From Dysgonomonas hofstadii (lineage in GTDB: Bacteria > Bacteroidota > Bacteroidia > Bacteroidales > Dysgonomonadaceae): a DNA stretch of 64,000 nucleotides. Of the stretch, positions 4,455 to 32,677 are shown piece after piece; within the stretch, counting starts at the first letter, position 1, and each line of letters begins with the position of its first letter. The notes beneath the pieces are model-generated. The model saw only the letters and a program-made list of their open reading frames with translations, was not told the DNA's origin and did no database searches. Location: contig NZ_JACIEP010000005.1 of NCBI RefSeq assembly GCF_014196915.1, positions 186,001 through 250,000 on the forward strand, written 5' to 3'. The position numbers and the translations under genes were made by a program.

Positions 4455-4914
4455 GTTCAATTATTTTCTACTACGCGCAATCGAAGATTGCTTGTGTTCC
4501 TTTTGGCCAAATCCCCAAAAGGAACCAAAAACGCTTTAGTGGCTCATCCTTCGTGCGACCCGTTACAGGCTCACGGGCTAAATGGAAAGATTGTCCTGCG
4601 GACGCTTTCCATTTCACGCCCCTCTCGCCTGACGGGTGCCCCGCACTACGGCTTAATGCCACCAGGCGAAGCCACCTCAAGGCAGGGTAATTCTCTATCG
4701 TGCGCCAGCTTTCCGTGCATAGGTTCCTACGACGGGCACCTGTCCGGTGAAGACGGCGTGAAACCAAATACTGTCTGAGCCGCAGGCGAGTTTATTTGGT
4801 TTAGCCGGCAAGCCGATGACAGGTCGGCGGGGAACAAAGCACTAGCCTTTTGTTTCGTTTTGGGCAATGCCAAAATGAAAAACAAACCCGAAGGGTGCGT
4901 TAGTAAAATTGAAC
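4455..4914 (+). repeat. GC-rich structured dispersed repeat, copy 1
   Basis: A ~460-bp block, clearly more GC-rich than its flanks, repeated in reverse orientation at 32221-32677. The ends are inverted repeats (GTTCAATT at 4455-4462, AATTGAAC at 4907-4914). Internal hairpins include CAATC-GAA-GATTG (4478-4490), an 11-bp stem at 4496-4506/4515-4525 with an 8-base loop, CCAAATA...TATTTGG (about 4764-4799), a long stem around 4850-4885 and ACCC-GAA-GGGT (about 4886-4896). The 11-bp stem differs in sequence from copy 2 but keeps perfect pairing. A possible outer 11-base inverted pair AATCAGTAGTT (4419-4429)/AACTACTGATT (4925-4935) exists only here. No transposase is present. Overlapping open frames look non-coding. 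It sits between the convergent genes glnA and aroC. Confidence 0.85.
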
Positions 4915-4943
4915 GATTAAATCTAACTACTGATTCGCGTTAT

Positions 4944-6020
4944 TTACAGAAAAGCTTTATTTATTTTGCTTAGCAGGTAGTAATCGAGGATGGTCATTGC
5001 CGCCATAGCTTCGACAATAGGCACAGCACGTGGTAATACACAGGCGTCGTGACGTCCCCGGGCCTTCAGGTCTGTATCTTCTCCGGCTTTATCCACTGTT
5101 TTCTGTTGCATTAGTATAGTTGCCACAGGTTTAAAAGCCACCCGGAAGTATATATCTTGTCCATTTGATATTCCGCCTTGTATTCCACCCGAATGATTGG
5201 TGCGGGTGCTGATTTGGCCCTTGTCGTTAAAAAATTCGTCGTTTACTTCCGAACCTCGATGACTTACATCAAAACCGTCTCCATATTCGAATCCTTTCAC
5301 TGCGTTGATACTTAGCATGGCGCTACCCAGTGCCGCATGAAGCTTTCCGAATACAGGTTCGCCCAATCCTGCAGGAGTCCCTTTTATAACACAGGTAATA
5401 ACTCCGCCGATGGTATCACCTTTCGATTTGACTTCCTCTATGAGGCTGATCATTTCTTCGGCTTTTTCCCGATCGGGACAACGTACAGGAGTAGACTCTA
5501 TCAGGGAAAGATCATATTCGGTATATGGCTTTTCCTGTTTGATGCAGGCTACCTGTGATGTAAATGCTGTGATTTCTATGTTGAGTTGCTTTAGAGCCAG
5601 TTTAGCGATCGCTCCTGCCACACACCGGGCTATAGTTTCCCGTGCTGAAGATCGTCCTCCGCCTCTATGGTCACGTACGCCATATTTCTGGTTATAGGTA
5701 TAATCGGCATGAGACGGGCGGTAGAGATCTTTCAGATTATCGTAATCGGAAGAATGTTGGTTTGCGTTGCGGATAATAAATCCGATCGGCGTACCTGTGG
5801 TTTTGCCATCGTATACTCCCGAAAGGAATTCCACTTCGTCGTTCTCCTTGCGAGGGGTTGTTATTTTAGATTGTCCCGGACGGCGGCGGTTCAGCTCGTT
5901 TTGGATAAACTCCATATCCATGGTTATACCCGAAGGGCATCCGTCGATAACTCCGCCAATGGCTGCGCCATGAGATTCTCCGTATGATGTGAGTCTGAAA
6001 ATATTCCCGAATGTATTCAT
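4944..6020 (-). CDS. aroC: chorismate synthase
   Basis: This 358-residue enzyme catalyses the last step of the shikimate pathway, converting EPSP to chorismate with reduced FMN as cofactor. Signature regions are visible: [18 protein letters not shown] at residues 14-31, RRPGQSK near 47, [15 protein letters not shown] followed by [13 protein letters not shown] near residues 102-130, and [10 protein letters not shown] near 278. All match normal AroC, and the length is typical. A -7-like TAAATTTG lies at 6042-6049 on the minus strand. The gene is alone; its 3' end faces the structured repeat. aroB lies far away at 61-62 kb. Confidence 0.96.
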
Positions 6021-6217
6021 CTTATTCTATAATATATTTTACAAATTTACGGCAAAATATTCAAATGATATGCAAATCGATAAAATTAGCATTTATATTA
6101 TACGAAAAGAGAATGTTATAAGCCTTATTAATATAAATTAAAGTAAAATTTAAGATTAAATTGCTAAATTTGCGGATTGTTTAAGATAGTCAAAAAATCT
6201 TGTTTAAAATAAGTGGA

Positions 6218-7720
6218 ATGAGAATATTCAAAATCTGTTTCAGTCTTATTGTATTTTTACTTGTATATGTTTGTGTCGATGCCCAGAATCAGGCCGAACG
6301 GGACAGTTTGCTTAATAAGATAACCAATATAGATGCAAAGTTGAGGACCTTCTCTGAGAGAGATACTACCCGGGGATTTTCGGCTCCCTTAAAAATAGAT
6401 ACGGTTTATGCTAACCAGTTGCAGGATATAAACATGCAACCATTCAGGGACGAAAAGGGCTTATTGCTAGTTGAATCCGACTGGACTCCTTTTCCTAATT
6501 ATATAACATTCAGAGATACTGTTATTTTTGAGCCGGCATATCTCCCCGTAATATTTGAAGGGAAAATATTGTCGGATGATATTGATTTCAGGACAAAAGA
6601 AACCTCCCCGAATGAAGAATTTCACCTTATTTCACCTGACAGTACCTTTGCACCTAAGCTAAAACGTATAGCAGAGATTGAAGATATGAGGAGGTTCTAT
6701 TATATGAATAATCCTCAGAAGATACGCCTGAACGCTTTGGCTTTTCAGGATGCTCCTGTAATAGAATCACAGGAAATAGAGCGACGTAGCCCGTTTAAGG
6801 ATTTAATTACAGCCGAAAAGCCGGTAGAATTTATCAGGCCGGATGTAGAAAAGACGGAGATCAAACTTCTGAATTGGTTAACGACCGGAGAACATCGTTT
6901 GCAACTTACATATAATACTTATTCTGATAATTGGGGTGGGGATAATAACTTCGATTTATTTAGCCATCAAAAATTTAATATTAATTATAAGAAAAATAAG
7001 ATTAAGTTTGATAACCTTATAGAATGGAGGCTTCAGCTTAAGCAATTAACATCCGTGGAGGATAAGGATAAGGAGGAAAATAAAAATAAAGGTAAGCTGA
7101 ATATTATTGATGATTATTTGAGAACATATAGTACCTTTAGTATTGAAGCTTTTTATAAAAAATGGTTTTATTCCACTAATCTGGAAATGAAAACTCCGGT
7201 ATTTCCTAAAAGAGCCACCGATGCACAACGGACTCCTCAAAGAGGATTTCTTGCACCTTTCGAACTTAACTTAGGGGTCGGTATGCGCTATGAAACAGAG
7301 ACTACTTCAAAAAAAGATAAATATCGTAAGTTCAAGGTATCTACAGACTTATCTGTCTTGTCAATGAATTATAAGTATTCGAGATATGATAAAGAAAAGA
7401 TATCTCCAACAAACTTTGGTATAGAAGAAGGTAATTCTCAAACAGATTTGGGTTCTACATTTAATGTGAATTTAGCTTACTCACATAATAGATATACAAA
7501 AATTTCGTCGCGTATGAAATATTTTACAAATTATGAAAGAGTATATGTTGAGTGGGAAAATTCATTTGATTTTGCTATCAATAATTATTTTGCTACTACA
7601 TTATATTTTTATCTCAAATATGATGATAGTCTTCCAGAAGAAAAACGAAACAATGATAAAACATGGAAATATTTCAATTTTAATCAGATGCTTCGTTTTG
7701 GTTTGACCTACACCTGGTAA
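6218..7720 (+). CDS. DUF3078 outer-membrane-type protein
   Basis: About 500 residues. I chose the ATG at 6218 (MRIFKICFSL, a clear signal peptide ending near VDAQ) over the TTG at 6200 because a purine-rich AAGTGGA precedes it. The N-terminal third is a soluble linker; from about residue 225 (YSDNWGGDNNF, FNINYKK) to the end (LRFGLTYTW) the pattern is alternating strands with a terminal aromatic residue, as in outer-membrane barrels. The NWGG block is the DUF3078 signature. The function is unknown. It is monocistronic and followed by the initiator tRNA. Confidence 0.75.
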   Translation: MRIFKICFSLIVFLLVYVCVDAQNQAERDSLLNKITNIDAKLRTFSERDTTRGFSAPLKIDTVYANQLQDINMQPFRDEKGLLLVESDWTPFPNYITFRDTVIFEPAYLPVIFEGKILSDDIDFRTKETSPNEEFHLISPDSTFAPKLKRIAEIEDMRRFYYMNNPQKIRLNALAFQDAPVIESQEIERRSPFKDLITAEKPVEFIRPDVEKTEIKLLNWLTTGEHRLQLTYNTYSDNWGGDNNFDLFSHQKFNINYKKNKIKFDNLIEWRLQLKQLTSVEDKDKEENKNKGKLNIIDDYLRTYSTFSIEAFYKKWFYSTNLEMKTPVFPKRATDAQRTPQRGFLAPFELNLGVGMRYETETTSKKDKYRKFKVSTDLSVLSMNYKYSRYDKEKISPTNFGIEEGNSQTDLGSTFNVNLAYSHNRYTKISSRMKYFTNYERVYVEWENSFDFAINNYFATTLYFYLKYDDSLPEEKRNNDKTWKYFNFNQMLRFGLTYTW

Positions 7721-7802
7721 AAAAACTTATCCGGCTAACAACTTCTATATTTACAACTTAGATGCCGGATGTAAATAAAAATGTTTATTAATGCGGTTTT
7801 TA

Positions 7803-7834
7803 TTTGGAGCATTACAATAAATTACATACTTTTG
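7803..7834 (+). promoter_or_regulatory. promoter of the initiator tRNA
   Basis: TTTG (7803-7806), a 20-base spacer, then TACTTTTG (7827-7834), 12 bases before the tRNA. It is an exact fit to the Bacteroidetes -33/-7 consensus. Confidence 0.8.
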
Positions 7835-7846
7835 CACTCACAATAT

Positions 7847-7918
7847 CGCGGAATGGAGCAGTGGTAGCTCGCCAGGCTCATAACCTGGAGGTCGTTGGTT
7901 CGAGTCCAGCTTCCGCAA
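7847..7918 (+). tRNA. tRNA-fMet (CAT), initiator
   Basis: A 72-base cloverleaf. The acceptor is CGCGGAA/TTCCGCA, with the unpaired C1-A72 that marks bacterial initiator tRNAs, and the discriminator is A73. The anticodon arm is CCAGG-CTCATAA-CCTGG with anticodon CAT. The T-arm loop is TTCGAGT. CCA is not encoded (ACT follows). The anticodon stem has only two of the three usual consecutive G-C pairs (A29-U41 replaces the first). Confidence 0.95.
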
Positions 7919-7928
7919 CTAAAGGAAA

Positions 7929-7960
7929 AGCAATCGAGAAATCGGTTGCTTTTTTATTTT
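7929..7960 (+). terminator. terminator after tRNA-fMet
   Basis: AGCAATCGA (7929-7937), loop GAAA, TCGGTTGCT (7942-7950; one G-U pair), then TTTTTATTTT. This is a strong rho-independent terminator 10 bases beyond the tRNA. Confidence 0.85.
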
Positions 7961-8029
7961 AATATCAATTGATTAATGAGTTAGGGTCAACGAAAAAAAG
8001 GATATCTTTTCAGTTTAATTAAATATATA

Positions 8030-8812
8030 CTATAATTCTTTCACCTTTGCGATCATCTCTTCTATTAAATCATTATCACATTTGGCCCATAATATCTCCG
8101 GATCGTCTCCTGCCCAAATGTTTAGTGTATTGAACATGAAAATGTGTATATTTTGCTCAATTTTATATTCCAATTTTCTTTCTGTCGTTCTTCCTATCTT
8201 TTTTTGGCAAAATAACACGACCTGTGCCTTGTTCTTCCCTTTTGAATACAATTGTCCGAGCTCTGATAAATCTTCTAACAATTTATTCATATTCGTTGAT
8301 TCATTGTACCTGTGGTGATAGAATATTATAATTTCTTTGCTCCCTTTACATCTTTTCAGACGATCTATTCTTTCTTTAAATTTTATTCTTAAATACTCAT
8401 TTCCAATGACATCATGATGGGTGAATTCAAAGCCATTGGTATGTAAGCTATAATATGAATTAGTGATTTTATCATATTTTTTCAAACGAGGTACCTGTTG
8501 TTTATCGTTTAACTCTTCGTATTTGATAAACTCAGTGTTGAGAAAATCTTTATAATTATCTTTTTCTATCTGAATAATATATTCAATATTGGATCGCCCG
8601 TGCGAATAAACCGTAGTAAAAGACTTGATATTATATCGGTCTAAAATATTGTCTGTTAAACAATTTTCTCCAAAAGAGAGATATAATTTTTTAGAGAAAA
8701 TATATCTATACTTTTTTTTTAATTGATATAATATATCGATCACTTTCTTCAGCTTTTTTTCATTTCTTAAAATAACATTCTCTGCATACAGGCAAATATC
8801 CGCTGTCTCCAA
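8030..8812 (-). CDS. DUF1796-like putative papain-fold protein
   Basis: 260 residues as drawn. From about residue 42 the pattern LYLSFGENCLTDNILDRY, then a SHGRSNIEYI region, FEFTHHDV near 130 and a KFKERIDRL helix near 145 resembles DUF1796 (putative cysteine peptidase), where an N-terminal Asn-Cys and a later His are conserved; I infer this by eye. The catalytic role is unproven. The start at 8812 is a weak TTG lying inside tdk (53-base overlap); a GTG at 8743, 17 bases after the tdk stop, is a reasonable alternative. It is A/T-rich and Lys/Ile-rich compared with neighbours. Probably co-transcribed with tdk. Confidence 0.55.
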   Translation of the reverse strand: METADICLYAENVILRNEKKLKKVIDILYQLKKKYRYIFSKKLYLSFGENCLTDNILDRYNIKSFTTVYSHGRSNIEYIIQIEKDNYKDFLNTEFIKYEELNDKQQVPRLKKYDKITNSYYSLHTNGFEFTHHDVIGNEYLRIKFKERIDRLKRCKGSKEIIIFYHHRYNESTNMNKLLEDLSELGQLYSKGKNKAQVVLFCQKKIGRTTERKLEYKIEQNIHIFMFNTLNIWAGDDPEILWAKCDNDLIEEMIAKVKEL

Positions 8813-9302
8813 TTAGTACCACATCTTTTTTCTCTCCCAGATATAGATTCATTGTCGCTTTTCTTGCACACCTTGAGCAGCAGGATTTAATCTCTTCTAT
8901 AACATCAGCTATTTCGAATAGTCTTTTAGAGCCGGCAAATAGATTTCCGTTACTATCAGTCCTCAATCCATAGCAAATTATTACTAAATCTTTTTGCATG
9001 CACAGTTTATTAAGCTGATCTATATCATTCTCTGATAAGAATTGGCATTCGTCAATCATGATTACTGATTGCTGGCCAAGATAGCTGAACAGGTCTGACA
9101 GGTCTGAGTTCTCAGGGATAGTTATACATTTCTTCGGAGGTATTCCGGCTCTGGTAGTAATATACTCTCCATCCCGGGTGTCTATACTCGATTTGGTGTA
9201 AATAACAGTTTTTCCTCTTTCCTCAAGGTTATACCCTGTCATTAATAAATGCGCAGACTTACTGGAGCCCATGGCTCCGTATCTAAAAATAATTTTGCTC
9301 AT
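8760..9302 (-). CDS. tdk: thymidine kinase (class II)
   Basis: This 180-residue enzyme phosphorylates thymidine to dTMP with ATP in the salvage pathway. The P-loop is GAMGSSKS (residues 9-16) and the Walker B-like IMIDECQFL is near residue 81. The C-terminal zinc site is formed by a CSRC pair (near 142) and CREC (near 174). YLGEKKDVVLIGDSGYLPVCRECY corresponds to the family's lasso and substrate-loop region but is somewhat divergent; the canonical GPMFSGKT P-loop is altered. A TACTTTTG -7 box lies at 9334-9341 on the minus strand. A DUF1796-like gene follows. Confidence 0.9.
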   Translation of the reverse strand: MSKIIFRYGAMGSSKSAHLLMTGYNLEERGKTVIYTKSSIDTRDGEYITTRAGIPPKKCITIPENSDLSDLFSYLGQQSVIMIDECQFLSENDIDQLNKLCMQKDLVIICYGLRTDSNGNLFAGSKRLFEIADVIEEIKSCCSRCARKATMNLYLGEKKDVVLIGDSGYLPVCRECYFKK

Positions 9303-9376
9303 ATTTAGCTATAGTTGTTATTTCTTATCCGCGCAAAAGTACAATTTTTATTTATAAGAAAAATAGAATAAAAGAA

Positions 9377-9401
9377 AAGCATCTGATTTTTTCAGATGCT
9401 T
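9377..9401 (-). terminator. terminator after the small lipoprotein gene
   Basis: AAGCATCTGA (9377-9386) and TCAGATGCTT (9392-9401) are perfect 10-base arms around a 5-base loop. On the minus strand it is followed by TTTCTTTTATTC. It lies between the lipoprotein (upstream) and tdk (downstream). Confidence 0.7.
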
Positions 9402-9432
9402 CTCAATATTTTAATTATTTATATAATACGTT

Positions 9433-9690
9433 TTATTCTTTTTCTTTATACCATTTGTATAGATGTCCGTCTACAAACTCGAAGAACCAGTGGTATTTAT
9501 ATTTGTCCACATATTCCAGTGTCTGGTTTGCATCGTCCTTATACTCTACCACATTGTATTTATCACCCATCAGTGTGACAATCTGATTAGTGGTCATACC
9601 CAGTTCTACTTGTTTCAATTGAGTATTGTAAGCTGTTCCACAAGCTGTTAATGCAACAGCCATAAATAGTGCAAGAATTAATTTTTTCAT
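9433..9690 (-). CDS. small lipoprotein, SmpA/OmlA (BamE)-like
   Basis: 85 residues from the ATG at 9690 (MKKLILALFM). I prefer this to the upstream ATG at 9747 because it begins a clean lipoprotein signal with lipobox LTAC (Cys 17 or so). The mature part QLKQVELGMTTNQIVTLMGDKY followed by short strands (LEYVDKYKYHWFFEF) resembles the SmpA/OmlA fold, where a small helix-turn-helix precedes three strands. The role is unknown; a BamE function is not implied. Confidence 0.75.
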   Translation of the reverse strand: MKKLILALFMAVALTACGTAYNTQLKQVELGMTTNQIVTLMGDKYNVVEYKDDANQTLEYVDKYKYHWFFEFVDGHLYKWYKEKE

Positions 9691-9860
9691 ACTTATAATT
9701 GTTTTATTAGTTAGTAAACAATCAGGTGATTTATAAAGTTCGTTCATATGCTTTTTTCGGGATAAGAAAACATACTTTTTCTGGTTTTGTATTGTTCATA
9801 TTTTTAATAAAACGGAATTTACAGGCAAGTATTGTTCCATTCCTAATGCTTTTTTAATAA

Positions 9861-9888
9861 AAATACTCCGGAGGATTCCGGAGTATTT
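9861..9888 (-). terminator. terminator after the amylase gene
   Basis: AAATACTCCGG (9861-9871), 6-base loop, CCGGAGTATTT (9878-9888), a perfect stem. On the minus strand TTTTATTAAAAAAG follows. It lies 70 bases past the stop of the GH13 gene; it could also act on the plus strand. Confidence 0.75.
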
Positions 9889-9958
9889 ACGTTCATTTTA
9901 CTATGAGTAAAACAGTCTAGTGTGTTATTTGAAATGTAAAAACCATGAGTATGAAATA

Positions 9959-11836
9959 TTATTCACTGAGATAAAGCCTGTATTCCCCGGGTTGCAATTC
10001 TACTTTTTGTTTTTCAGATGTTGTGGTAATCTGCGCATTGGTAAATAGTTCTGTCCACGAGCCAGCTTTTTCAAAATTTACATCTGCAGATACAGGTACA
10101 AGGTCGAAATTTGCAATTACACAAGCATAATTATTTCCCGACTTCAGTAATATCTGCTTATATTGTCCTGCCAGGTCGGCAGTATAGGTATTCGTTGAGA
10201 ACAGGCTGTTAGAATTACGGAGTTTGTTCATTTTTGCATAGACATCATACATTGCTTTGCGTTCAGTAACATTATAATAATCCCAGCGTATGGGCTTCTT
10301 ACCCAATCGATCATCATTTAGCTCAAAGTCATATCCTACTTCTCCAAATTGCCAGATCATTTTCGGGCCCGGGAGCGAGAGTAATATCACTGCCGCTGCT
10401 TCTGTGCGCTGAAGTCCTGTAGCCAGATTTTTTACATCATAATCGCCGATAGCATCTCCATACGAGTTGTTTTTGAACATGATGCGTTCTTCGTCGTGGC
10501 TTTCCATATAGGCAACCAGATTAGGCTTAGACCATCCCCGTTCGAGGTAGGAAGCCCAGTTTACATCGCCTTTCATTTTATTGTAGTCACCAATCTCGGC
10601 ACCCCAACCCATAGTAGCTTCGTTGAAATTATAGTTTATATTTCCCCACAGCTTGATACCATAGTCTGATAGAATAACTTCTTCCGAATTGTCGGTCAGA
10701 TGTTCAAATATCACAATGGCGTCAGATTTGCGTTTCCATATTTCATCCGTCATTCGTTTCAATATGGCTATGCGGCTGTCATCCTTATCCCATCCGTTAC
10801 CGGTCTTATTGGTAAATCCTTTGGTGAAGTCGAAGCGGAAACCGTCTATTTTATATTCTTTCATCCAGAATGCACATACACTATCTACAAATGCCTGGGT
10901 GTATTTGCTTTCGTGATTGAAATCCGATCCCCACGAATAGTCCGTGTTAGGAGATGTTGTATTGTACCACGGATTGTCGCTTGTCGGATTGTAATTTCCA
11001 TCGTCGTACATCCTCACCAACGGACTTTGCCCGTAACTGTGGTTCAATACCATATCCATTATCACGGCAATGCCTCTTTGGTGGCAGGCGTCTATAAATG
11101 CTTTATAATCGTTTGGTGTACCATATGCTTTGTCTGTGGCGAAATAGAATGACGGGTTATAGCCCCAGCTGTCGTTGCCTTCAAATTCGTTGAATGGCAT
11201 CAGTTCGATAGCGTTTATACCGAGATTTTGTATATAGTCGAGTTTGCTTTGAACTCCTTTAATGCTTCTCTCTTCTGTAAAATCACGGATAAGGATTTCA
11301 TAAATCACCATATTATCGGGATTAGACAAGCTGAAATTCGTTACTTTCCAGTCATAAGTGGCTGGTGCCGTATTCACTACCATAGCTATCTGATCGGTTT
11401 TACCTGTAGGGTAGGCGATTAGGTTCGGGTAAATACTGCTTGATATATCTTCGTCGTTCCACGGGTCAGATATTTTACTGGTGTATGGATCTGCAACTTT
11501 TATTTTATTGTCTATCAGGTATTGGCAGATGTATTCTTTCCCTTTTTCCAGGTTTCCGATTTTGATATAAAAACGATCGTCTTTTTTTACCATTTTGTAT
11601 TCATCTGATACCTGCCAGTTGTTGAAATCTCCAATGAGGTAAACCGATTGTTTTCCGGGTGCAAAAAGTACAAAACCCAGGGAGTCTTCACTGATAACGG
11701 TTATCCCGTCTCTCATTCCTATTTCTGAAGGTGTTTCCGGTTCAGGATCCGGCTTCGGTGTAATCGTATCATTATCATCGCTACATGCGATAAATAATAA
11801 TGATAATAAAAATATGAATATAACTCTAATTTTCAT
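9959..11836 (-). CDS. GH13 alpha-amylase family lipoprotein
   Basis: A 625-residue surface or periplasmic glycosidase. The lipobox is FIAC, with Cys 18, followed by an acidic/proline linker (about 19-40). An N-terminal beta-sandwich of the CBM48/E-set type (about 45-130, with VYLIGDFNNW) precedes the GH13 barrel. The catalytic residues can be placed: nucleophile Asp336 (DGFRFDFTKG), acid/base Glu378 (IFEHLTD) and Asp448 (ESHDEER); DMVLNHS near 258 is conserved region I. A C-terminal beta domain ends in PGEYRLYLSE. It likely hydrolyses alpha-glucans such as starch or maltodextrin. No SusC/SusD pair flanks it. A -7-like TAGTTTTG (11877-11884) and a LacI-type palindrome (11942-11951) lie upstream. 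Confidence 0.92.
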   Translation of the reverse strand: MKIRVIFIFLLSLLFIACSDDNDTITPKPDPEPETPSEIGMRDGITVISEDSLGFVLFAPGKQSVYLIGDFNNWQVSDEYKMVKKDDRFYIKIGNLEKGKEYICQYLIDNKIKVADPYTSKISDPWNDEDISSSIYPNLIAYPTGKTDQIAMVVNTAPATYDWKVTNFSLSNPDNMVIYEILIRDFTEERSIKGVQSKLDYIQNLGINAIELMPFNEFEGNDSWGYNPSFYFATDKAYGTPNDYKAFIDACHQRGIAVIMDMVLNHSYGQSPLVRMYDDGNYNPTSDNPWYNTTSPNTDYSWGSDFNHESKYTQAFVDSVCAFWMKEYKIDGFRFDFTKGFTNKTGNGWDKDDSRIAILKRMTDEIWKRKSDAIVIFEHLTDNSEEVILSDYGIKLWGNINYNFNEATMGWGAEIGDYNKMKGDVNWASYLERGWSKPNLVAYMESHDEERIMFKNNSYGDAIGDYDVKNLATGLQRTEAAAVILLSLPGPKMIWQFGEVGYDFELNDDRLGKKPIRWDYYNVTERKAMYDVYAKMNKLRNSNSLFSTNTYTADLAGQYKQILLKSGNNYACVIANFDLVPVSADVNFEKAGSWTELFTNAQITTTSEKQKVELQPGEYRLYLSE

Positions 11837-12172
11837 GGCTTAAAATATAAATGGCTGATATTGATTAATTCAAGATCAAAACTAATTCTTCCTGTGAAAA
11901 CTTTATTCCTGTTATGCTTAAAATCGACCTAAAATTGTATGCAAACGTTTGTGTATTTATCTGGAGTGATCTTGAAAATAATTTTATCAAAAATTTAATA
12001 AATAATTAAACCAATTGATTTGTCTATAGTCTAAAAGGTATAAATATGATAGAATTATCTAGGCTATAGCAAGATTTTAGAATAAGGGACCTGAAAAAAC
12101 TCTTCGTAGAAAATATATGTCTATGTGTTAAATACACATAAATTGATTCATTAACAACTAATACTTATTACC
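11837..12172. other. divergent intergenic region
   Basis: 336 bases between the amylase and the Arg-Glu-Gln lipoprotein. It is A/T-rich and holds the amylase -7-like box TAGTTTTG (minus strand, 11877-11884) and the palindrome CAAACGTTTG. I see no RNA gene or ORF in it and no clear promoter for the plus-strand gene. Confidence 0.5.
11942..11951. promoter_or_regulatory. LacI-family-type operator upstream of the amylase
   Basis: CAAACGTTTG is a perfect 10-base palindrome with the central CG typical of LacI/GalR-family operators. It lies 105 bases upstream of the amylase start and about 58 bases upstream of its -7 box. No LacI-family gene is in the window, so the regulator would be encoded elsewhere. 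This is inference from the motif alone. Confidence 0.4.
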
Positions 12173-13840: not shown

Positions 13841-13860
13841 CAAATTAAATATATGCAGTT

Positions 13861-14331: not shown

Positions 14332-14344
14332 GGTGCAGAAGAAC

Positions 14345-14376: not shown

Positions 14377-14390
14377 ATGTATATTTTTAT

Positions 14391-23741: not shown

Positions 23742-24068
23742 TTCCTTTGTAAAAATGTTTCAGGCTGCAAAATTAAACATTTTTTTGTAATATGACGGAT
23801 TTTATATTAGTATTATCAAATTGGTGAAAAATTATCTATGTGTAGAAAGTAAAAAGTAGTTAGTAGAAGTGATCTTTGGAAGTAAGAAAAATGTCAAACC
23901 TGTCAGGTTTTGGTTAAAAAGCTATATGCTTATTCTATCTCAGCTACCGAAAAATAAATATCTTTGTCATAAAAGTTTTGCAAAATAGTGATTAAATGCG
24001 GAAAAGGATGAATCTGTTGATTATGGAAACTAAATAAGCAAAAGAACAAAATTCAGAAATCATTAGCG
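23742..24068. other. intergenic region with a GTCAGGTTT repeat fragment
   Basis: 327 A/T-rich bases between the divergent genes nusB and a GNAT gene. It holds the nusB -7 box and a copy of the short intergenic motif TGTCAGGTTTTGGTTAAAAA (23901-23920), also seen near 37.2, 37.35 and 57.8 kb. I see no RNA gene or ORF. Confidence 0.5.
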
Positions 24069-24602: not shown

Positions 24603-24616
24603 GTAAATTACAATAT

Positions 24617-25018: not shown

Positions 25019-25069
25019 ATAACGCGAGTACTTGGCTTGTGGAATTATGTCCTATTCTCAAAAAAACAC

Positions 25070-25077
25070 TACCTTTG
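25070..25077 (+). promoter_or_regulatory. -7 box of the DPP IV gene
   Basis: TACCTTTG fits TAnnTTTG and lies 24 bases before the ATG. No good -33 TTTG is at the ideal distance; CTTG near 25036 is too far. Confidence 0.4.
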
Positions 25078-25101
25078 AAATAAAATAAAAATAAATAGAT
25101 C

Positions 25102-27255
25102 ATGAAGAGCATTTTTGGATTGCTGATTGCGGTTTCTTTATTCACTACAGCTACTGCGCAGCGTTTAGATTTAAGAGATATCACTTCGGGTAAGTATTAT
25201 GCAAAAGGTGTATCGCCCGTTACATCTTCGGCCGATGGCGAGCATTATTATCAGGCTGATAAGGAAAACAGAATGATCATAAAATATTCATATAAGACAG
25301 GGCAGCCGGTCGATACTATATTTAATGTGGCCCGGGCCCGCGAATGTACGTTCGATTCGTTCCAGGGGTTCCTGATCAGTCCCGATGAAAAACGTCTGGT
25401 TGTTTACCGCGATGCCGAATCTATTTATCGCCATTCGTTCAAGGCAACATATTATTACTATGATGTGCGCCGGAATCTGGTACGTAAATTATCGGAAAAC
25501 ACATCGAAACAATCTATTCCTGTATTTTCCCGTGACGGACGTATGATGGCATATATGATTGACAATAATATCTGGCTGGCAAAATTCGACTATGATACCG
25601 AATCACAGGTAACAAAAGACGGGGCGTTTGGCAAAATAATCAACGGAGGTACCGACTGGGTATATGAAGAGGAATTCGGAACGACAACATTGATGGATTT
25701 CTCTGCTGACGGACGTTTACTGGCCTTTGTTCGCTTCGACGAAACCGATGTGCCGCAGTTCTCGATGCAGATGTATGAAAATAAGCTTTATCCTGAGTCT
25801 TTTACATTTAAGTATCCTAAGGCCGGCGAGCAGAACTCGAAAGTGACCTGCAATGTATTCGATATAGATGCCAAGACTATCCGCAAGATGAATATTCCCG
25901 CTGATACGGAATACATTCCTCGTATAGAATTCTTGCCGGAAGGTGATGAACTGGCAATTTTTACCCTGAACAGGGAGCAGAATAAATTTGATCTGTATTT
26001 GACTAATGCCCGTTCGGCTGTGGCGCGGACAGCACTTCATGAAGAGAATTCAAGGTACATCAGTTCCGACCTGATTGAATCGACCATGTTCTTTGGAAAC
26101 CAGTTTGTTTACCTGAGTGAGAAAAGCGGTTATTCCCATATTTATCTGTATGATAACACCGGGGTGCAGCAAAAGCAGTTGACATCAGGTGAATATGATG
26201 TAACCGGTTTACTGGCTGTTGACCCGCAGACAAAAACGGTCTTTTATCAGGCGGCAGAAGTCAGCCCGCTTCAACGGGAGATATATAAAGTGGATATGGT
26301 AAAAGGTATCAAAACAAAGCTATCAGCCAAACAAGGAACAAACAGCGCTAATTTTAGTAAAAACGGCAAATATTATATCAATAGTTTCACAAATGTGACC
26401 ACTCCAAGAATATCTACTGTGCACGATGCCACAGGTAAGGAATTGCGTGTGCTGGAAGATAACACGGCATTAAAGAATACTTTGGCGGGATTGAAATTGC
26501 CTGTAAAAGAATTTATCACTGTAAAATCGGCTGATGGCAGGGATTTGAATGCATACCTGATCAAGCCTGCCGACTTCAACGCTTCTAAAAAATATCCGGT
26601 GGTGATGGTGCAGTATAGCGGGCCTAACTCTCAGCAGGTGAAAGATAGTTACGGCATGGACTGGACTGATTACATTACCACACAAGGATTTATCGTGGCC
26701 TGTGTGGATGGCCGGGGAACGGGTGCCCGTGGCGAAGAATTCCGCAAATGCACTTATATGAATCTGGGGATATATGAGTCGGACGATCAGGTAGCAGCGG
26801 CACGCCATTTAGCTTCACTTCCATATATAGATGGCAGCAAGATCGCTATCTGGGGCTGGAGTTACGGCGGCTACAATGTGCTGATGAGTATGAGCCGGGG
26901 TGACGGCACCTTCAAAGCCGGGGTGGCTATTGCTCCTGTTACCGACTGGAAATTTTATGATACAGTATACGCCGAACGATTTATGCGTACCCCTCAGCAA
27001 AATATGGCAGGATATAATGCAGGATCTCCTATAAAACTGGCTAATAAACTGGAGGGAAATCTTTTGTTAATACATGGCTCTGCCGATGATAATGTTCATT
27101 TCCAGAATACAATGGACTATGCGGCAGCTTTGGTAAGGGCAAATAAGCAATTCGATATGTTTGTGTTTACGGATAAGGATCATTCTATCCGTGGTGCGGC
27201 AAACAGAGCTTATTTGTATGAAAAAGTGATCAAATTTTTAAAAACCAATATGTAA
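25102..27255 (+). CDS. dipeptidyl peptidase IV, S9 family
   Basis: 717 residues with a signal peptide (about 1-20, ending TATA-Q). The N-terminal DPP IV beta-propeller (about 30-460) includes WVYEEEF near residue 190, the double-Glu motif that anchors the substrate N-terminus. The peptidase domain carries Ser587 in GWSYGGY, Asp662 in HGSADDNV and His694 in DKDHSIRG. It releases X-Pro or X-Ala dipeptides from peptides in the periplasm or at the cell surface. Its own promoter is likely at 25070. A small membrane protein gene with a strong AGGAGG follows 25 bases downstream. Confidence 0.95.
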   Translation: MKSIFGLLIAVSLFTTATAQRLDLRDITSGKYYAKGVSPVTSSADGEHYYQADKENRMIIKYSYKTGQPVDTIFNVARARECTFDSFQGFLISPDEKRLVVYRDAESIYRHSFKATYYYYDVRRNLVRKLSENTSKQSIPVFSRDGRMMAYMIDNNIWLAKFDYDTESQVTKDGAFGKIINGGTDWVYEEEFGTTTLMDFSADGRLLAFVRFDETDVPQFSMQMYENKLYPESFTFKYPKAGEQNSKVTCNVFDIDAKTIRKMNIPADTEYIPRIEFLPEGDELAIFTLNREQNKFDLYLTNARSAVARTALHEENSRYISSDLIESTMFFGNQFVYLSEKSGYSHIYLYDNTGVQQKQLTSGEYDVTGLLAVDPQTKTVFYQAAEVSPLQREIYKVDMVKGIKTKLSAKQGTNSANFSKNGKYYINSFTNVTTPRISTVHDATGKELRVLEDNTALKNTLAGLKLPVKEFITVKSADGRDLNAYLIKPADFNASKKYPVVMVQYSGPNSQQVKDSYGMDWTDYITTQGFIVACVDGRGTGARGEEFRKCTYMNLGIYESDDQVAAARHLASLPYIDGSKIAIWGWSYGGYNVLMSMSRGDGTFKAGVAIAPVTDWKFYDTVYAERFMRTPQQNMAGYNAGSPIKLANKLEGNLLLIHGSADDNVHFQNTMDYAAALVRANKQFDMFVFTDKDHSIRGAANRAYLYEKVIKFLKTNM

Positions 27256-27280
27256 AACTTAATATTGAGGAGGATTGCTT

Positions 27281-27511
27281 ATGTTTAAAAAGAATATGTT
27301 GATAGGTTATATTGCTTCTATGGGTTTCCTGTTCTTACTGTTTGTTGTTTTTACAGCCCAAAATGGATTGTCATGGTGGACTAGCCCGGAGAACGAATTG
27401 CTGATATTTTTTCCGCTATGGGCAATAGGGGCATTTTTTATAGGATATTCGGTTTCGAAATATTATACCTTGAAGAAGCGTTGTCAGACTGATGAAGAAG
27501 AAGACAGTTAA
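27281..27511 (+). CDS. small two-helix membrane protein
   Basis: 76 residues from the ATG at 27281; an in-frame TTG at 27275 is less likely because GAGGAGG (27267-27273) is ideally spaced from the ATG. Such a strong Shine-Dalgarno is unusual in this window. Two hydrophobic segments (about residues 5-24 and 39-56) precede a charged C-terminal tail (KKRCQTDEEEDS). No family is recognised. Confidence 0.65.
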   Translation: MFKKNMLIGYIASMGFLFLLFVVFTAQNGLSWWTSPENELLIFFPLWAIGAFFIGYSVSKYYTLKKRCQTDEEEDS

Positions 27512-27593
27512 TCTTTTTTGTTCATCTATCAGTGATAAATATTATCATACAGGATTTTAACCATAACGGTTTTTCATAAAGGTATCTATGGGC

Positions 27594-27601
27594 TATCTTT
27601 G
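27594..27601 (+). promoter_or_regulatory. -7 box of the lipA promoter
   Basis: TATCTTTG matches TAnnTTTG, 43 bases upstream of lipA. A T-rich tract (GGTTTTTC, about 27569) sits at -33 distance without a full TTTG. Confidence 0.5.
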
Positions 27602-27644
27602 TGTATATTTTTCAAAGTTTAAATCGTAATCACATACATAAATC

Positions 27645-28484
27645 ATGGAACACGTTAGAAAACCCGAGTGGTTAAAGATCAAACTGGGAGGAGACCACTT
27701 CTCCGAAACTCTCAATATAGTAGAATCTCACGGGCTGCATACCATTTGCTCAAGCGGCCGTTGTCCTAATATGGGTGAATGCTGGGGCAGAGGTACGGCT
27801 ACATTTATGATAGGTGGAGATATTTGTACCCGTTCATGTAAATTCTGCAATACCAAAACAGGACGTCCTCTGCCATTGAACAGGAATGAATCGTCAAATG
27901 TAGCCAAGTCCATACAATTGATGGGATTGAAACACGCAGTGATTACCTCCGTCGACAGGGACGATCTTCCCGATCAGGGTGCACAGCACTGGGTAGACAC
28001 TATAAACAAGGTGAAAGAAGTAAATCCGAATACCACTATCGAAGTGCTTATTCCCGATTTTCAGGGAAAGATGCATCTGGTAGATATGGTTTGCGATGCT
28101 GCACCGAATGTTATTTCTCACAATATGGAAACAGTTCGCAGTCTTACACCTAAAGTTCGTAGTGCCGCGAAATACGATGTGAGTCTGTCGGTATTGGGAC
28201 GTATTGCGGAGAACGGATTAAGAGCTAAATCGGGTATCATGGTCGGTTTGGGAGAAACCACCGATGAGATACTGCAGCTGATGGACGACTTATTGTCTGT
28301 GAATTGCTCTGTGCTGACCATCGGGCAGTATTTGCAGCCGACACGCAAACATTTGCCCGTAGCGGCATACATTCATCCCGATGAATTCAGGCGGCTGAAA
28401 GAGATCGCTATGGGAAAAGGGTTCTCTTATGTTGAAAGTGGCCCGTTGGTACGTTCTTCTTATCATGCCGAAAATTGCCTGTAG
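27645..28484 (+). CDS. lipA: lipoyl synthase
   Basis: This 279-residue radical-SAM enzyme inserts two sulfurs into octanoyl groups on lipoyl-dependent proteins. The auxiliary cluster ligands are CSSGRCPNMGEC (near residues 36-47) and the SAM-cluster motif is CTRSCKFCNT (near 62-71). GTATFMIGGD, IGQYLQPTRKHLPV (near 225) and the C-terminal GPLVRSSYHAE (the Ser that ligates the auxiliary cluster, near 270) are all present. Length is normal. It is monocistronic with a strong terminator downstream; lipB is not in the window. Confidence 0.96.
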   Translation: MEHVRKPEWLKIKLGGDHFSETLNIVESHGLHTICSSGRCPNMGECWGRGTATFMIGGDICTRSCKFCNTKTGRPLPLNRNESSNVAKSIQLMGLKHAVITSVDRDDLPDQGAQHWVDTINKVKEVNPNTTIEVLIPDFQGKMHLVDMVCDAAPNVISHNMETVRSLTPKVRSAAKYDVSLSVLGRIAENGLRAKSGIMVGLGETTDEILQLMDDLLSVNCSVLTIGQYLQPTRKHLPVAAYIHPDEFRRLKEIAMGKGFSYVESGPLVRSSYHAENCL

Positions 28485-28515
28485 GATAAAAGAACTCCTG
28501 CAGAATTGATATAAA

Positions 28516-28556
28516 AAGACAGCATACGATAATGAATCGTACGCTGTCTTTTTTCA
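28516..28556 (+). terminator. terminator after lipA
   Basis: AGACAGC-A-TACGAT, loop AATGA, ATCGTA-CGCTGTCT, then TTTTTT. The long stem with one irregularity lies about 33 bases beyond the lipA stop. Confidence 0.85.
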
Positions 28557-28745
28557 TATTTATATTCTTATATCTTCCCTTTTATACGAATAAACCTGAC
28601 TGTATAATTTTTAGAGGTGAACTTTTCGGCAAAACAACTTGAGCTTTTTAGCAAACTGTTTTTGCCTTTTATGGCTTTTCTTTGTATTACATTAAAAGTA
28701 AAAAGCTGAACAATGACAAAAGGTAATCTTAATAGCTTTAATATT

Positions 28746-29816
28746 ATGAGAAGAACAATCATTATACTGATTGCGGCGTTAGCCGCTTTCAGTTTTAGTA
28801 TCAACTTAGAAGCACAGGAAATGAAATCACTGGATAATAAACAACAAAAGATTGTTACTATAGCCGCCAATACGGCAATCGGTAACCTCGATATTCTGAA
28901 AATAGAGTTAAATGCAGGACTGGATGCAGGACTTACCATAAATCAGATAAAAGAGATTTTGGTACAAATGTATGCGTATTGCGGTTTTCCCCGCAGCCTG
29001 CAAGGGATCAACACCTTTATGGCTGTGATGGACGAACGCACAGCAAAAGGAATTGAGGATAATACAGGTGCTGACGTTTCAGCGATAACCTCCACTGGAG
29101 ATAAATATGCACGTGGGAAAGAAAACCTGCAAAAGCTGACAGGTGTTGAAGAACTCACTCTGACTGGAGCTAATGCTTTTGCTCCGGCGATTGACACCTT
29201 TCTGAAAGAACATCTCTTTGCCGATATATTCGAACGGGATATACTTACTTTTCAGCAGCGGGAGATAGCCACTATTTCTGCACTTTCGGCGATGGAAGGA
29301 GTCGATCCGATGCGGCGTTCTCATCTTAATCTGGGCAGAAATACCGGACTAACAGATCAGCAACTTGAAGAAATTGGATCGATCGCAGGAAAGATAGGTT
29401 CCGGTTACCGGAATGCTATATTTTCTATCGGTCAACGTGCGTCTTCAGACTGGTTTACAGGGGAGGTTTATGTTCAGGGTTTAGTAAATCCGGATCAGAT
29501 GGAAAACCTTTACACAGTAGGCCAAGTTACTTTTATGCCGGGTGGACGAACGCACTGGCATACTCATCCGATAGGGCAAACTCTTCTGGTACTTGAGGGA
29601 AGCGGCTGGTATCAGGAACGGGGCAAACCAGCTCAGAAATTAACTAAAGGTAGTGTTGTTCCTATACCGAAAGATGTGGAACACTGGCATGGTGCGGCAG
29701 CCGATGCAAAACTTGTTCATGTTGCTATTTCGAATATGAAAGAGGGTAGTGGAGTAACATGGATGACACCTGTTAATAATGAAGAATATAATATTGTCAA
29801 TAATACAGGTCGATAA
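28746..29816 (+). CDS. carboxymuconolactone decarboxylase-like protein fused to a cupin
   Basis: About 356 residues from the ATG at 28746 (MRRTIIILIA), chosen because it begins a signal peptide (to about EAQ, residue 24); the ATG at 28713 would only add 11 polar residues. Two AhpD/CMD-type segments are visible (about 35-110 and 150-225; the second contains REIATISALSAMEGVDP). A C-terminal cupin (about 240-340) has GGRTHWHTHPIGQTL and VPKDVEHWHG metal-ligand histidines. No CxxC peroxidase motif is visible in the CMD part. Such CMD-cupin proteins often sit with oxidoreductases; here a flavodoxin-like reductase and an AraC regulator follow. The substrate is unknown. Confidence 0.82.
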   Translation: MRRTIIILIAALAAFSFSINLEAQEMKSLDNKQQKIVTIAANTAIGNLDILKIELNAGLDAGLTINQIKEILVQMYAYCGFPRSLQGINTFMAVMDERTAKGIEDNTGADVSAITSTGDKYARGKENLQKLTGVEELTLTGANAFAPAIDTFLKEHLFADIFERDILTFQQREIATISALSAMEGVDPMRRSHLNLGRNTGLTDQQLEEIGSIAGKIGSGYRNAIFSIGQRASSDWFTGEVYVQGLVNPDQMENLYTVGQVTFMPGGRTHWHTHPIGQTLLVLEGSGWYQERGKPAQKLTKGSVVPIPKDVEHWHGAAADAKLVHVAISNMKEGSGVTWMTPVNNEEYNIVNNTGR

Positions 29817-29856
29817 TTGAGTATATATATTATGCTCGGCTTAACTATTAAATAAT

Positions 29857-30390
29857 ATGAAAAAGAAAGTGTTGATCATATCTGCCAGTCCCCGGCGGGG
29901 AGGCAATTCCGACTATCTGTGCAATGAGTTCATGCGCGGGGCACAGGAAACAGGACATGATGTGGAAAGAATATTCTTCCACGACAAGAAGATCAATTAT
30001 TGTCTTGGCTGTGGTTCCTGTTACAAAACAAATAAATGTGTTCAGAAAGACGATATGGCAGAGGTTTTGGATAAAATGGTAGAAGCGGATGTTTTGGTAT
30101 TCGGGACGCCTGTATATTTTTATACAATAGATGCGCAGCTTAAAACCCTGATCGACCGCACTGTTCCGCGTTACACCGAGCTGAAGGGAAAAGCTTACCT
30201 TATTGCTGCCCTAGCCGATGAAGAAAGAGGTTCTATCTCGGGTACACTCGCCGCATTCAGGGGATTTATGGATTGCCTTGAGAATGTTGCTGAAGCAGGA
30301 ACCATCATTGGTTACGGAGCCTGGAATAAAGGGGATATTGTTGGAAATCCGGCAGTCGGAGAAGCTTATAAGGCAGGGAAAAAATGTTAA
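29857..30390 (+). CDS. flavodoxin-family NAD(P)H-dependent oxidoreductase
   Basis: 177 residues with the flavodoxin fold. ISASPRRGGNSDYLCNEF (residues 8-25) is the FMN phosphate loop, and INYCLGCGSCYKTNKC (near 50) is the CxxCxxC-type motif common in iron-sulfur-flavoprotein-like reductases. FGTPVYFYTIDAQLKTLIDR (near 95) contributes to the flavin site. It probably acts on quinones or other small substrates. It lies 40 bases after the CMD-cupin gene. Confidence 0.87.
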   Translation: MKKKVLIISASPRRGGNSDYLCNEFMRGAQETGHDVERIFFHDKKINYCLGCGSCYKTNKCVQKDDMAEVLDKMVEADVLVFGTPVYFYTIDAQLKTLIDRTVPRYTELKGKAYLIAALADEERGSISGTLAAFRGFMDCLENVAEAGTIIGYGAWNKGDIVGNPAVGEAYKAGKKC

Positions 30391-30417
30391 ATCCAGTATG
30401 TCTTTTTCGCAAAATGT

Positions 30418-30425
30418 TATCTTTG
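30418..30425 (+). promoter_or_regulatory. -7 box upstream of an AraC regulator
   Basis: TATCTTTG fits TAnnTTTG, 16 bases before the ATG at 30442. A T-rich CTTTTTC lies at about -33 distance. It would let the regulator be expressed apart from the upstream oxidoreductase. Confidence 0.4.
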
Positions 30426-30441
30426 TAAAAATGTCTTTATC

Positions 30442-31269
30442 ATGAATAACAAAAAAGGTTACATAGTCTCCAGATATTCCGATATCCTGTTCAGCTATTA
30501 TTTTAGTGACGATTGCATGTGTTCGAGTATGGTTCGCGACCATTTTCTGGTATATCTGTATTCCGGGGAATATATACTGGATGAGGGAAAGAGAAGGACT
30601 GTGATAAAGCCGGGTGAATGTGTTTTCTTGAAACGGGACAACCGGGTGAATATGATAAAGCAGCCTAAAAACGGAGAGCCTTTTATGGCGATATTCCTCA
30701 CCTTTAAGCGTAACTTCTTGCGTGGAGTATATCAAAAATTTGAAAGAAAGGAGCTGCCTCTGAAAGCAGAGAAACAAAAACATAGCGTAATAAAATTACC
30801 TCAGACTCCGGATATAAAAGGATTGTTCCAGTCACTGGTGCCTTATTTCGATTCCACTGTCGAGCCGTCAGATGATATAATGAAGCTGAAATTATTAGAA
30901 GGGGTGTATTCCCTTTTGCGCATCGATGATAAATTCTATGCTACGCTTTTTGACTTTACCGAGCCATGGAAGATTGATATACTTGAGTTTTTGAATGAAA
31001 ACTATATGTACGATTTTTCTCTGGAAGATATTGCTTCATTCACCGGTCGCAGCCTTTCCACATTTAAGCGGGATTTTAAGAAAATAAGTAAACTGTCGCC
31101 TGAGAAATGGTTGATACAGAGACGGCTTGAAGCTGCCCGCGAGAAGCTTCAGGAAGATGGAAGAACGGTTACAGATGTTTACGTCGAGGTTGGTTTCAAG
31201 AACCTTTCACACTTTTCGTCAGCCTTTAAAAAACAATACGGAGTGGCTCCAAGCAGTTATGCTCAATAG
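30442..31269 (+). CDS. AraC family transcriptional regulator
   Basis: 275 residues. The N-terminal part (about 1-160) is a cupin-like sensing region (FLVYLYSGEYILDEG..., VIKPGECVFLKRDN). The C-terminal part has two HTH motifs: YDFSLEDIASFTGRSLSTFKRDFKK (about 183-210) and TVTDVYVEVGFKNLSHFSSAFKKQYG (about 240-268). The distance to the CMD-cupin/flavodoxin pair and shared strand suggest it regulates them. A 13-base tandem duplication (31255-31280) covers its stop codon. Confidence 0.87.
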   Translation: MNNKKGYIVSRYSDILFSYYFSDDCMCSSMVRDHFLVYLYSGEYILDEGKRRTVIKPGECVFLKRDNRVNMIKQPKNGEPFMAIFLTFKRNFLRGVYQKFERKELPLKAEKQKHSVIKLPQTPDIKGLFQSLVPYFDSTVEPSDDIMKLKLLEGVYSLLRIDDKFYATLFDFTEPWKIDILEFLNENYMYDFSLEDIASFTGRSLSTFKRDFKKISKLSPEKWLIQRRLEAAREKLQEDGRTVTDVYVEVGFKNLSHFSSAFKKQYGVAPSSYAQ

Positions 31270-31280
31270 TTATGCTCAAT
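31255..31280 (+). repeat. 13-bp tandem duplication across a stop codon
   Basis: AGTTATGCTCAAT occurs twice back to back (31255-31267, 31268-31280). The first copy plus the following base pair gives the stop codon of the AraC gene; the second copy is downstream and non-coding. Confidence 0.8.
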
Positions 31281-31310
31281 AGTATTACATGGCAATTTCC
31301 ATTGCCTTGA

Positions 31311-32174
31311 TCAAATAGAAAAATCCGATTTGTTATTTCTATACTGGCTTGGAGTAAGATTTGTGTATTGTTTAAATAATCTGTTGAAGTAGGATATATT
31401 ATCGATAGATAATTCCATGGCAATATCGGCGACGGGCATATTCGTAGTGAGTAGCAGTAGTTGCGCCTTTTCCATTTTTTTCAGATTTATATATTTTATA
31501 GGAGTACAGTTCATCTCCTTTCTGAATATGCGTATAAGATGATCCTCTGTGATACATGCAACATTTGCCAACTGGGAAAGCATTATATCCCTATCCATGT
31601 TCTTGTGGATATATTGGAGGCATTTATTTATCCTTTTATCTTCATATCTCGGCTTGAGCTTGGCACATTCTAAAAATTTAGACATAAGCTGGTATAAAAT
31701 ACCCTGGGTCTCTAAAACAGAATGGGCCGGCATACGGCTGTTCTCAGCTATATATTGAGAAAATGTGGGGGTGTTGTCATATACTTTAGGGTCTATATGT
31801 TGCAAATGTCTGTTTGGGTTTATATGCAATAACCTTTCAATCAATAGCGAACTTAATGTATTCCCCTTTATCTCAACAGGAAAATCCAGTTTGTCGAATA
31901 TCGATTCTTTATTATATGTCTTTTCATAGAAATGGATATAATAAAGAGAAAAGAAACTATCCGATTCATCGTCATGCAGGGCAAAAGGCGGGGTAAGGTA
32001 GAGATTCTCGGGGGTAAGAATATATTCATTCCCATTGATGTATGTTCTGGCTTCACCTCCGGTGACGTAATATATGCGGGCAAAAGGACTGTTTATGTTT
32101 TTCCAGTTCCAATTGGCATTCAGTTCAGAATAGCCCACATTTAGCAATACCAGGTTTAGATTATCTATTATCAT
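31311..32174 (-). CDS. AraC family transcriptional regulator
   Basis: 287 residues. The N-terminal cupin-like ligand domain (about 1-140; ARIYYVTGGEARTYINGNEY, YLTPPFALH) is followed by two HTH units: RDIMLSQLANVACITEDHLIRIFRKEMN (about 194-222) and MPVADIAMELSIDNISYFNRLFKQYTN (about 245-272), ending in PSQYR. It is divergent from the fucose locus across repeat copy 2, so it is a candidate fucose regulator, but the ~660-base spacing makes that uncertain. Bacteroides uses a GntR-type FucR instead, and none is seen here. Confidence 0.87.
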   Translation of the reverse strand: MIIDNLNLVLLNVGYSELNANWNWKNINSPFARIYYVTGGEARTYINGNEYILTPENLYLTPPFALHDDESDSFFSLYYIHFYEKTYNKESIFDKLDFPVEIKGNTLSSLLIERLLHINPNRHLQHIDPKVYDNTPTFSQYIAENSRMPAHSVLETQGILYQLMSKFLECAKLKPRYEDKRINKCLQYIHKNMDRDIMLSQLANVACITEDHLIRIFRKEMNCTPIKYINLKKMEKAQLLLLTTNMPVADIAMELSIDNISYFNRLFKQYTNLTPSQYRNNKSDFSI

Positions 32175-32220
32175 CGATCTCTTTTATATTTTAATGCAAA
32201 TCAGCAGTTAGATTTAATCG

Positions 32221-32677
32221 TTCTATTATTACTAACGCACCCTCCGGGTTTGTTTTTCATTTTGGCATTGCCCAAAACGAAACAAAAGGCTAGTGCTTTG
32301 TTCCCCGCCGACCTGTCAACGGTTTGCCGGCTAAACCAAATAAACTCGCCTGCGGCTCAGACAGTATTTGGTTTCACGCCGTCTTCACCGGACAGGTGCC
32401 CGTCGTAGGAACCTATGCACGGGAAGCTGACGCACGATAAAGAATTACCCTGCCTTGTCGTGGCTTTGCCCGGTGGCATTAAGCCGTAGTGCGGGGCACC
32501 CGTCAGGCGAGAGGGGCGTGAAATGGGAAGCGTCCGCAGGACAATCTTTCCATTTAGCCCGTGAGCCTGTAACGGGTCGCATGGAGGGTGAGCCACCAAA
32601 GCATTTTTGCATCCTTTTTTTGCTTAGGAAAAAAGGATGGCAAGCAATCTTCGATTGTGCGCAGTAGAAAATAGAAC
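32221..32677 (-). repeat. GC-rich structured dispersed repeat, copy 2
   Basis: This is the reverse complement of the element at 4455-4914, about 93% identical by eye outside one hairpin. Terminal inverted repeats are GTTCTATT (32221-32228) and AATAGAAC (32670-32677); compared with copy 1 one base pair has changed on both sides. The variable hairpin is CATCCTTTTTT (32610-32620)/AAAAAAGGATG (32629-32639) with an 8-base loop: same stem and loop length as copy 1, with four compensated pair changes. The ACCC-GRA-GGGT hairpin and others are kept. AATCAGCAGTT (32200-32210) beside it matches the outer motif of copy 1. It lies between the AraC gene and fucI. Confidence 0.85.

Follow-up and report, generated by a model that had tools for sequence, protein, structure and literature searches.

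Dispersed repeats of Dysgonomonas as probable mobile elements carrying a structured DNA hairpin

Two copies and their hairpin units

The window, a 64,000-nucleotide stretch of Dysgonomonas hofstadii DNA, holds two copies of a repeated element, copy 1 at an aroC site and copy 2 at an AraC-like/fucI gene pair. The original prediction had noted their close match, which is borne out by a core identity of 93% (row L009), and had described an element of about 460 bp. Such an element exists; its extent was set too short, as copy 1 with its shell and target duplication spans 4407-4947, and rather than being a single element it consists of two related units in inverted order. These units, A and B, are homologous, ~200 nt long and placed tail to tail. 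They share a common plan of hairpins H1 and H2 followed by a long hairpin, H3, in which the internal-loop motifs are the same and the stems are different. The features lie at the following window positions.

4407-4415, plus strand: left 9-bp target duplication of copy 1, TTTATTTAT, matched at 7 of 9 bases by its right partner
4416-4429, plus strand: left terminal repeat of the copy 1 shell, GACAATCAGTAGTT
4430-4454, plus strand: 'long' shell arm of copy 1, assigned by reading
4455-4463 and 4904-4914, both plus strand: inner repeats of copy 1, GTTCAATTA facing TAAAATTGAAC
4468-4680, plus strand: hairpin unit A of copy 1, single-strand fold z -6.25
4478-4490, plus strand: H1 of unit A, copy 1, CAATC-GAA-GATTG
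4496-4525, plus strand: H2 of unit A, copy 1, the variable stem noticed first, loop at 4507-4514
4552-4654, plus strand: H3 of unit A, copy 1, a long interrupted hairpin (R1 89.5 bits)
4680-4908, minus strand: hairpin unit B of copy 1, single-strand fold z -2.69
4721-4830, minus strand: H3 of unit B, copy 1 (R1 111 bits)
4853-4880, plus strand: H2 of unit B, copy 1, TTTCGTTTTGG..CCAAAATGAAA, with one G.T on the plus strand
4886-4896, plus strand: H1 of unit B, copy 1, ACCC-GAA-GGGT
4925-4938, minus strand: right terminal repeat of the copy 1 shell, GCGAATCAGTAGTT
4939-4947, plus strand: right target duplication of copy 1, GTTATTTAC
32196-32209, plus strand: the single visible shell terminal repeat of copy 2, GCAAATCAGCAGTT
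32220-32223, plus strand: inner repeat GTTC of copy 2, with its partner GAAC at 32674-32677
32305-32414, plus strand: H3 of unit B, copy 2 (109.3 bits)
32481-32583, minus strand: H3 of unit A, copy 2 (84.5 bits)
32610-32639, minus strand: H2 of unit A, copy 2, with four compensated pairs, loop at 32621-32628

The variable stem proved to be as first described: a perfect 11-bp helix closing an 8-base loop in copy 1 (4496-4506/4515-4525, GTTCCTTTTGG/CCAAAAGGAAC) and equally in copy 2 (minus strand, 32639-32629/32620-32610, CATCCTTTTTT/AAAAAAGGATG). The two stems differ at pairs 1, 2, 10 and 11, and all four differences are compensated. Both small hairpins reported alongside, CAATC-GAA-GATTG and ACCC-GRA-GGGT, are present. 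The loops, which had been called different, may each pair with the linker that follows, through AAGCA/TGCTT in copy 2 and over only 3 bp in copy 1. Across 91 distinct loop-linker pairs, the H2 loop pairs with the next linker over 4.71 bp, compared with 3.49 +- 0.13 bp for swapped loops. The pairing is found in A- and C-type loops and absent in B-type loops, and its compensated variants (CTTGAT/ATCAAG and CTTGAC/GTCAAG) outline a possible H-type pseudoknot at H2. Loop and linker can pair in this way in a free single strand, whether of DNA or RNA, and not in a cruciform.

Three hybrid hairpins combine A outer stems with a B tip (L032, L035 and L041) and a fourth has a half-swapped tip (L033), indicating that modules have been exchanged. 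Judged by eye, the inner repeat varies among copies and its partner usually changes with it, the exceptions being L005, L008 and L010. Two H3 matches in inverted order occur at 19 of 20 loci in genome G034 of genus g3. The 44 copies inspected in genera g8 and g9 each look like a single giant hairpin whose arms are different; L217, of this giant single-hairpin type, has a DNA fold z of -6.45. A second small hairpin, of the ATATTTGCGAT..GCAAATATCT type, occupies a constant place in the 3′ arm of four single-unit elements (L325, L327, L336 and L361). Another palindrome, of the GTCATCCTGA..ATGACA type, lies within or beside elements at L040 (~880-1000), L053 (~1350-1440), L157 and L163, and presumably resembles a repeat known from many phyla.

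Copy number, shell and insertion sites

The first reading had overlooked that the element is repeated across the genome and has a transposon-like shell flanked by target duplications. The genome of origin contains 84 matching pieces in at least 40 places, and DNA matches occur in 17 of 25 genus genomes, this one included; the relatives listed show 65-95% identity over pieces of differing length. A pattern scan of named genomes returned 13 stretches, 11 of them in Dysgonomonas sp. 521. Matches to a covariance model of H3 were found in at least 70 of 101 genomes of the family, Dysgonomonadaceae, representing 11 of 15 genera, and in at least 5 genomes of a phylum sample of 395 that includes the genome of origin, or at least 4 of the 394 others. 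These family and phylum counts are lower bounds, because the scan used strict filters and scored at most 37 (family) and 9 (phylum) candidates per genome. The four genomes outside the family share a single other family within its class. Two of their loci (L220 and L221, E ~1e-10) seem to follow the H3 plan described here and two (L222 and L223, E ~5e-4) are weak; matches in other phyla (L084 and L091) were treated as chance.

Copies are mostly intergenic. Judged against ORFs called by a simple script, 1 of 30 copies in the genome of origin and 2 of 44 single-unit copies in g8 and g9 lie inside a long ORF. The RNase P RNA gene has one copy (L042, G000:C24:25956-26743) immediately downstream of it. 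The plasmids searched contained no such element, phages searched with an H3 query gave no match, and nor did viral contigs scanned with just two exact patterns. The window core gave one 46-base match in a Microvirus record (MT135430), which carries a 44-bp stretch (L079, 4001-4044) 93.5% identical to part of the H2 of unit B and shows no H3 within the 4072 bases examined.

The outer shell is MITE-like. Its terminal inverted repeats, GCSAATCAGTAGTT, were first read from the ends and then tested: the motif occurs at 67+72 sites with up to 2 mismatches, compared with 13+18 for a reversed control. A 9-bp target duplication stands out among the tested lengths (z 6.6 over 38 rows, reached in 0 of 2000 shuffles; z at most 2.0 for the other lengths from 4 to 13), in a test that retained some weak pairs, L007, L162 and L178 among them, and counted L178 twice. 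Flank identity over the 9 bp is 0.681, against 0.562 +- 0.018 in re-paired flanks, and 1 to 9 of the 9 bases match in single copies. The target is palindromic and AT-rich, ATWAWTWAT. Given these ends, the duplication and the target, the shell was probably inserted by a transposase of the DDE type working in trans.

Terminal repeats also pair round non-core sequence, in one case (L160, 61 bp) round almost nothing, but the flank matches of such core-less shells are weak, at 4 (L160), 5 (L163), 3 (L157), 3 (L167), 2 (L180) and 7 (L178) of 9 positions. Conversely, four core copies (L016, L021, L022 and L025) have no shell; by eye, their GGTC..GACC-like ends change in step, less cleanly in L025. 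Both shell ends are seen in copy 1 and one in copy 2. The 74 shell arms beside core ends divide into short/A 20, long/A 16, short/B 15, long/B 8 and unclassified 15, and as both arm kinds adjoin either core end, core orientation relative to the shell is not fixed.

Copy 2 has an empty orthologous site of the kind expected of MITEs: the AraC-like/fucI pair occurs without the element at three loci in two genomes (G017 and G019), the best case being in G017 (AraC-like protein 78% identical), which also holds the second empty pair. At the aroC site of copy 1 the element was found in 0 of 22 relatives, but gene order there is not kept. Of 56 ORFs near stray terminal repeats, 54 entered family matching, and the 25 of 111 matched families that were listed for them include no transposase. 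Upstream of a fucI homologue, L145 shows an inner repeat, GTTCTATT..AATAGAAC, round a different palindrome, TCGTCATTGCGAG.., and no core. By eye, direct repeats of 14 bp, CAATAATTTAATTT, flank a single-unit element of another genus (L360), whose shell may therefore depend on a different transposase.

Covariation, wobble pairs and coding potential

Covariation was examined in H3; the stem noticed first belongs to H2, in which loop pairing alone was tested. Our genus alignment (A1) comprises 27 of 30 non-redundant H3 hairpins, with L015, L027 and L028 excluded as truncated or deleted. All its rows were found by a pattern requiring GGC[TA][AG]AA and TT[TC][CTA]ACGCC, which imposes the invariance of GGCTRAA, TTYHACGCC and three GGC/GCC pairs; that invariance therefore proves nothing. 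Across the 27 diverse hairpins there are 101 two-sided cells, compared with 30.7 +- 4.0 after shuffling, and the covariation score is 0.525 against 0.181 for shuffled alignments and at most 0.144 for slid structures. Paired cells make up 91.4%, compared with 72.1% in shuffles, a percentage raised by the three of 19 pairs that the search pattern fixes, which leave the covariation measures unaffected. Further pair types show no excess (28 versus 29.1 shuffled). Under a tree-based null with 40 replicates, 6 column pairs reach E<0.05, and every one of them belongs to the structure, which has 21 pairs. Covariation on H3 is strong and exceeds chance. The 70 loci from other genera supplied 93 unique copies, aligned by fitting to the model; 1596 of their 1742 cells are Watson-Crick and 471 of these are two-sided variants.

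Wobble pairs are rare in the same alignments. On the strand as read, G-U fills 3 of 509 genus cells, compared with 77 of 655 in RNase P RNA (p 1e-16; 8 genus sequences, roughly aligned); A.C, equivalent to G.U on the other strand, fills 20 of 509, with 22 of 655 in the control. A larger RNase P control of 27 sequences, left after 3 of 30 loci were set aside because of their odd length, gave G-U in 147 of 567 cells but was poorly aligned, and the 8-sequence version was used. The other-genus copies contain 18 G.T and 37 A.C among 1742 cells, and a count that includes helix-end pairs gives 64 G.T against 100 A.C, with 3 of 99 copies lacking an anchor. A.C exceeds G.T in every count, so any RNA involved would be the complementary strand. 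As wobble is depleted on either strand, we take these counts to favour DNA. Across the 44 single-unit copies of genera g8 and g9, that complementary strand agrees with the strand of the upstream gene 23 times and opposes it 21 times, with no strand preference. Rfam searches returned three tRNAs alone above the curated cut-off in the window, leaving the element unmatched, and no match at 16 relatives' loci; a known RNA was rejected on these grounds.

A conserved small protein gene has next to no chance of accounting for the element. ORFs of 52-98 aa do overlap copy 1, and certain shorter open stretches survive in 13 or 14 of 15 near-full copies. Against this, 14 of the 19 gaps in those copies are not multiples of three, the longest open stretch (107 aa) is interrupted in 6 of the 15 and the next (106 aa) in 8, and stem changes are two-sided. 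The protein gene was rejected on the out-of-frame gaps and broken stretches. The proposal that a nucleic-acid structure, not a protein, is maintained here is upheld by the H3 covariation together with the out-of-frame gaps.

Folded DNA, its alternatives and known systems

We favour, with a probability of roughly 0.6, a reading in which the elements are nested non-coding mobile repeats, with a structured DNA hairpin inside a transposon shell. The outer layer is the MITE-like shell with its GCSAATCAGTAGTT ends, probably inserted by a DDE-type transposase supplied in trans; the inner layer is the A/B unit pair, spread by the shell and carrying no gene. H3 is likely to be older than the shell, because in g8 and g9 it forms a single giant hairpin with different arms. 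The object maintained would be folded DNA, either a hairpin on exposed single strands or a cruciform, read by a putative protein, and its stems may drift by two-sided changes with help from hairpin-templated correction during replication. A more tentative possibility, which we consider doubtful, is that this is a new class of structure-recognized DNA: a family-wide single-stranded fold of ~200 nt, with a pseudoknot and interrupted stems, captured by transposon shells and served by an enzyme that reads shape over sequence. In integron attC sites the stem sequence varies and the structure is kept, and the elements described here are similar in this respect; the putative shape-reading enzyme would work in the manner of attC or IS200/IS605 ends.

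The original prediction had left open whether a structured RNA or a folded DNA form was selected. Strong covariation in the genus and other-genus sets, the possible pseudoknot and a mismatch bias that fits complementary-strand RNA are all compatible with a structured non-coding RNA that is moved by the transposon shell and whose units run from the centre to the ends in the order H3, possible pseudoknot, H2, H1. This is nevertheless unlikely: wobble on the favoured strand still reaches just 2.1% (37/1742) to 3.9% (20/509), compared with 11.8% in RNase P, the unit faces genes in either orientation, no Rfam family matches and B-type loops do not pair with the linker. On the rare G-U pairs, the balanced orientation and the Rfam result, folded DNA fits better and a new structured RNA less well: the pattern seems closer to what upkeep of a DNA fold would leave than to a novel RNA gene. 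Complementary stems might also arise by mutation alone. Template switching between arms, proposed in one report as a cause of double changes in rRNA stems (PMC8794818), could preserve stem complementarity even if the structure itself were not selected; two-sided changes outnumber intermediates, and the module-swapped and half-swapped hairpins are in keeping with such exchange. Arm correction alone should, however, remove unpaired positions, and interrupted stems are nonetheless seen again in other genera; this argument is weaker than it looks, because copies retaining the unpaired positions are favoured by both the search pattern and the model. We regard the purely mutational account as improbable. 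Template switching probably contributes to the two-sided changes, and arm correction can mimic selection, a point missed in the first reading.

Mobilization by a TnpA-REP (RAYT, Y1) transposase, as for BIME/REP elements, is a still more remote explanation. Inverted hairpin pairs, high copy number and mostly intergenic positions recall such elements, and Bacteroidetes subclass 2.6 genes are described as having atypical flanking structures that occur elsewhere in the genome too and as lacking the GTAG-type foot (PMC6006769). Yet H3 lies within 1.5 kb of 1 of 41 Y1 loci, blastn of the cores touched 2 of 20 genus Y1 loci (one weakly), and a Y1 match is absent from 47 of 70 H3-bearing genomes, a negative association (p 0.004). 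The Y1 (RAYT-like) gene at L109 (G000:C5:287475-290720) is flanked by inverted CGCGCAGACTTCCAGTCTGTGTGTTGCG repeats unlike the H3 elements. RAYT mobilization was rejected on the Y1-locus count and the negative genome association.

Comparison with described systems places the folded-DNA reading among several partial likenesses. The elements resemble REP/BIME in being palindromic, mostly intergenic, present as inverted pairs and expanded in particular genomes; they differ in that their units measure ~200 nt rather than the 20-40 bp given for REP hairpins (PMC3733652) and are unassociated with Y1 genes. They share with MITEs the terminal inverted repeats, 9-bp duplication, AT-rich target, mostly intergenic location and lack of a conserved gene. 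Unlike MITEs, their shell carries a structured core more widely spread than itself, and the matches listed for 54 neighbouring ORFs include no autonomous parent with the same ends. STAXI repeats, presented as candidate structured RNAs (PMC2864571), are likewise pseudoknot-bearing and possibly RNA or single-stranded DNA; in our elements the pseudoknot is a possible one. In contrast to STAXI, the elements here are dispersed in a transposon-like shell, have few wobble pairs and match no Rfam family. Among the open-licence literature matches listed, judged by titles and abstract openings, no paper describes such a repeat, and the titles listed for searches by sequence string are unrelated.

These elements constitute a large natural set of hairpins with two-sided changes and few wobble states, and could serve as the yardstick for DNA-level versus RNA-level covariation that genome screens for structured RNAs need. 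They also show a structured core enclosed in a transposon-like shell that is less widespread than the core, and bring to notice a family-wide repeat whose enzyme could be found. Pieces of the CGCGCAGACTTCCAGTCTGTGTGTTGCG repeat that flanks the Y1 gene also lie inside two core copies (L159 and L163).
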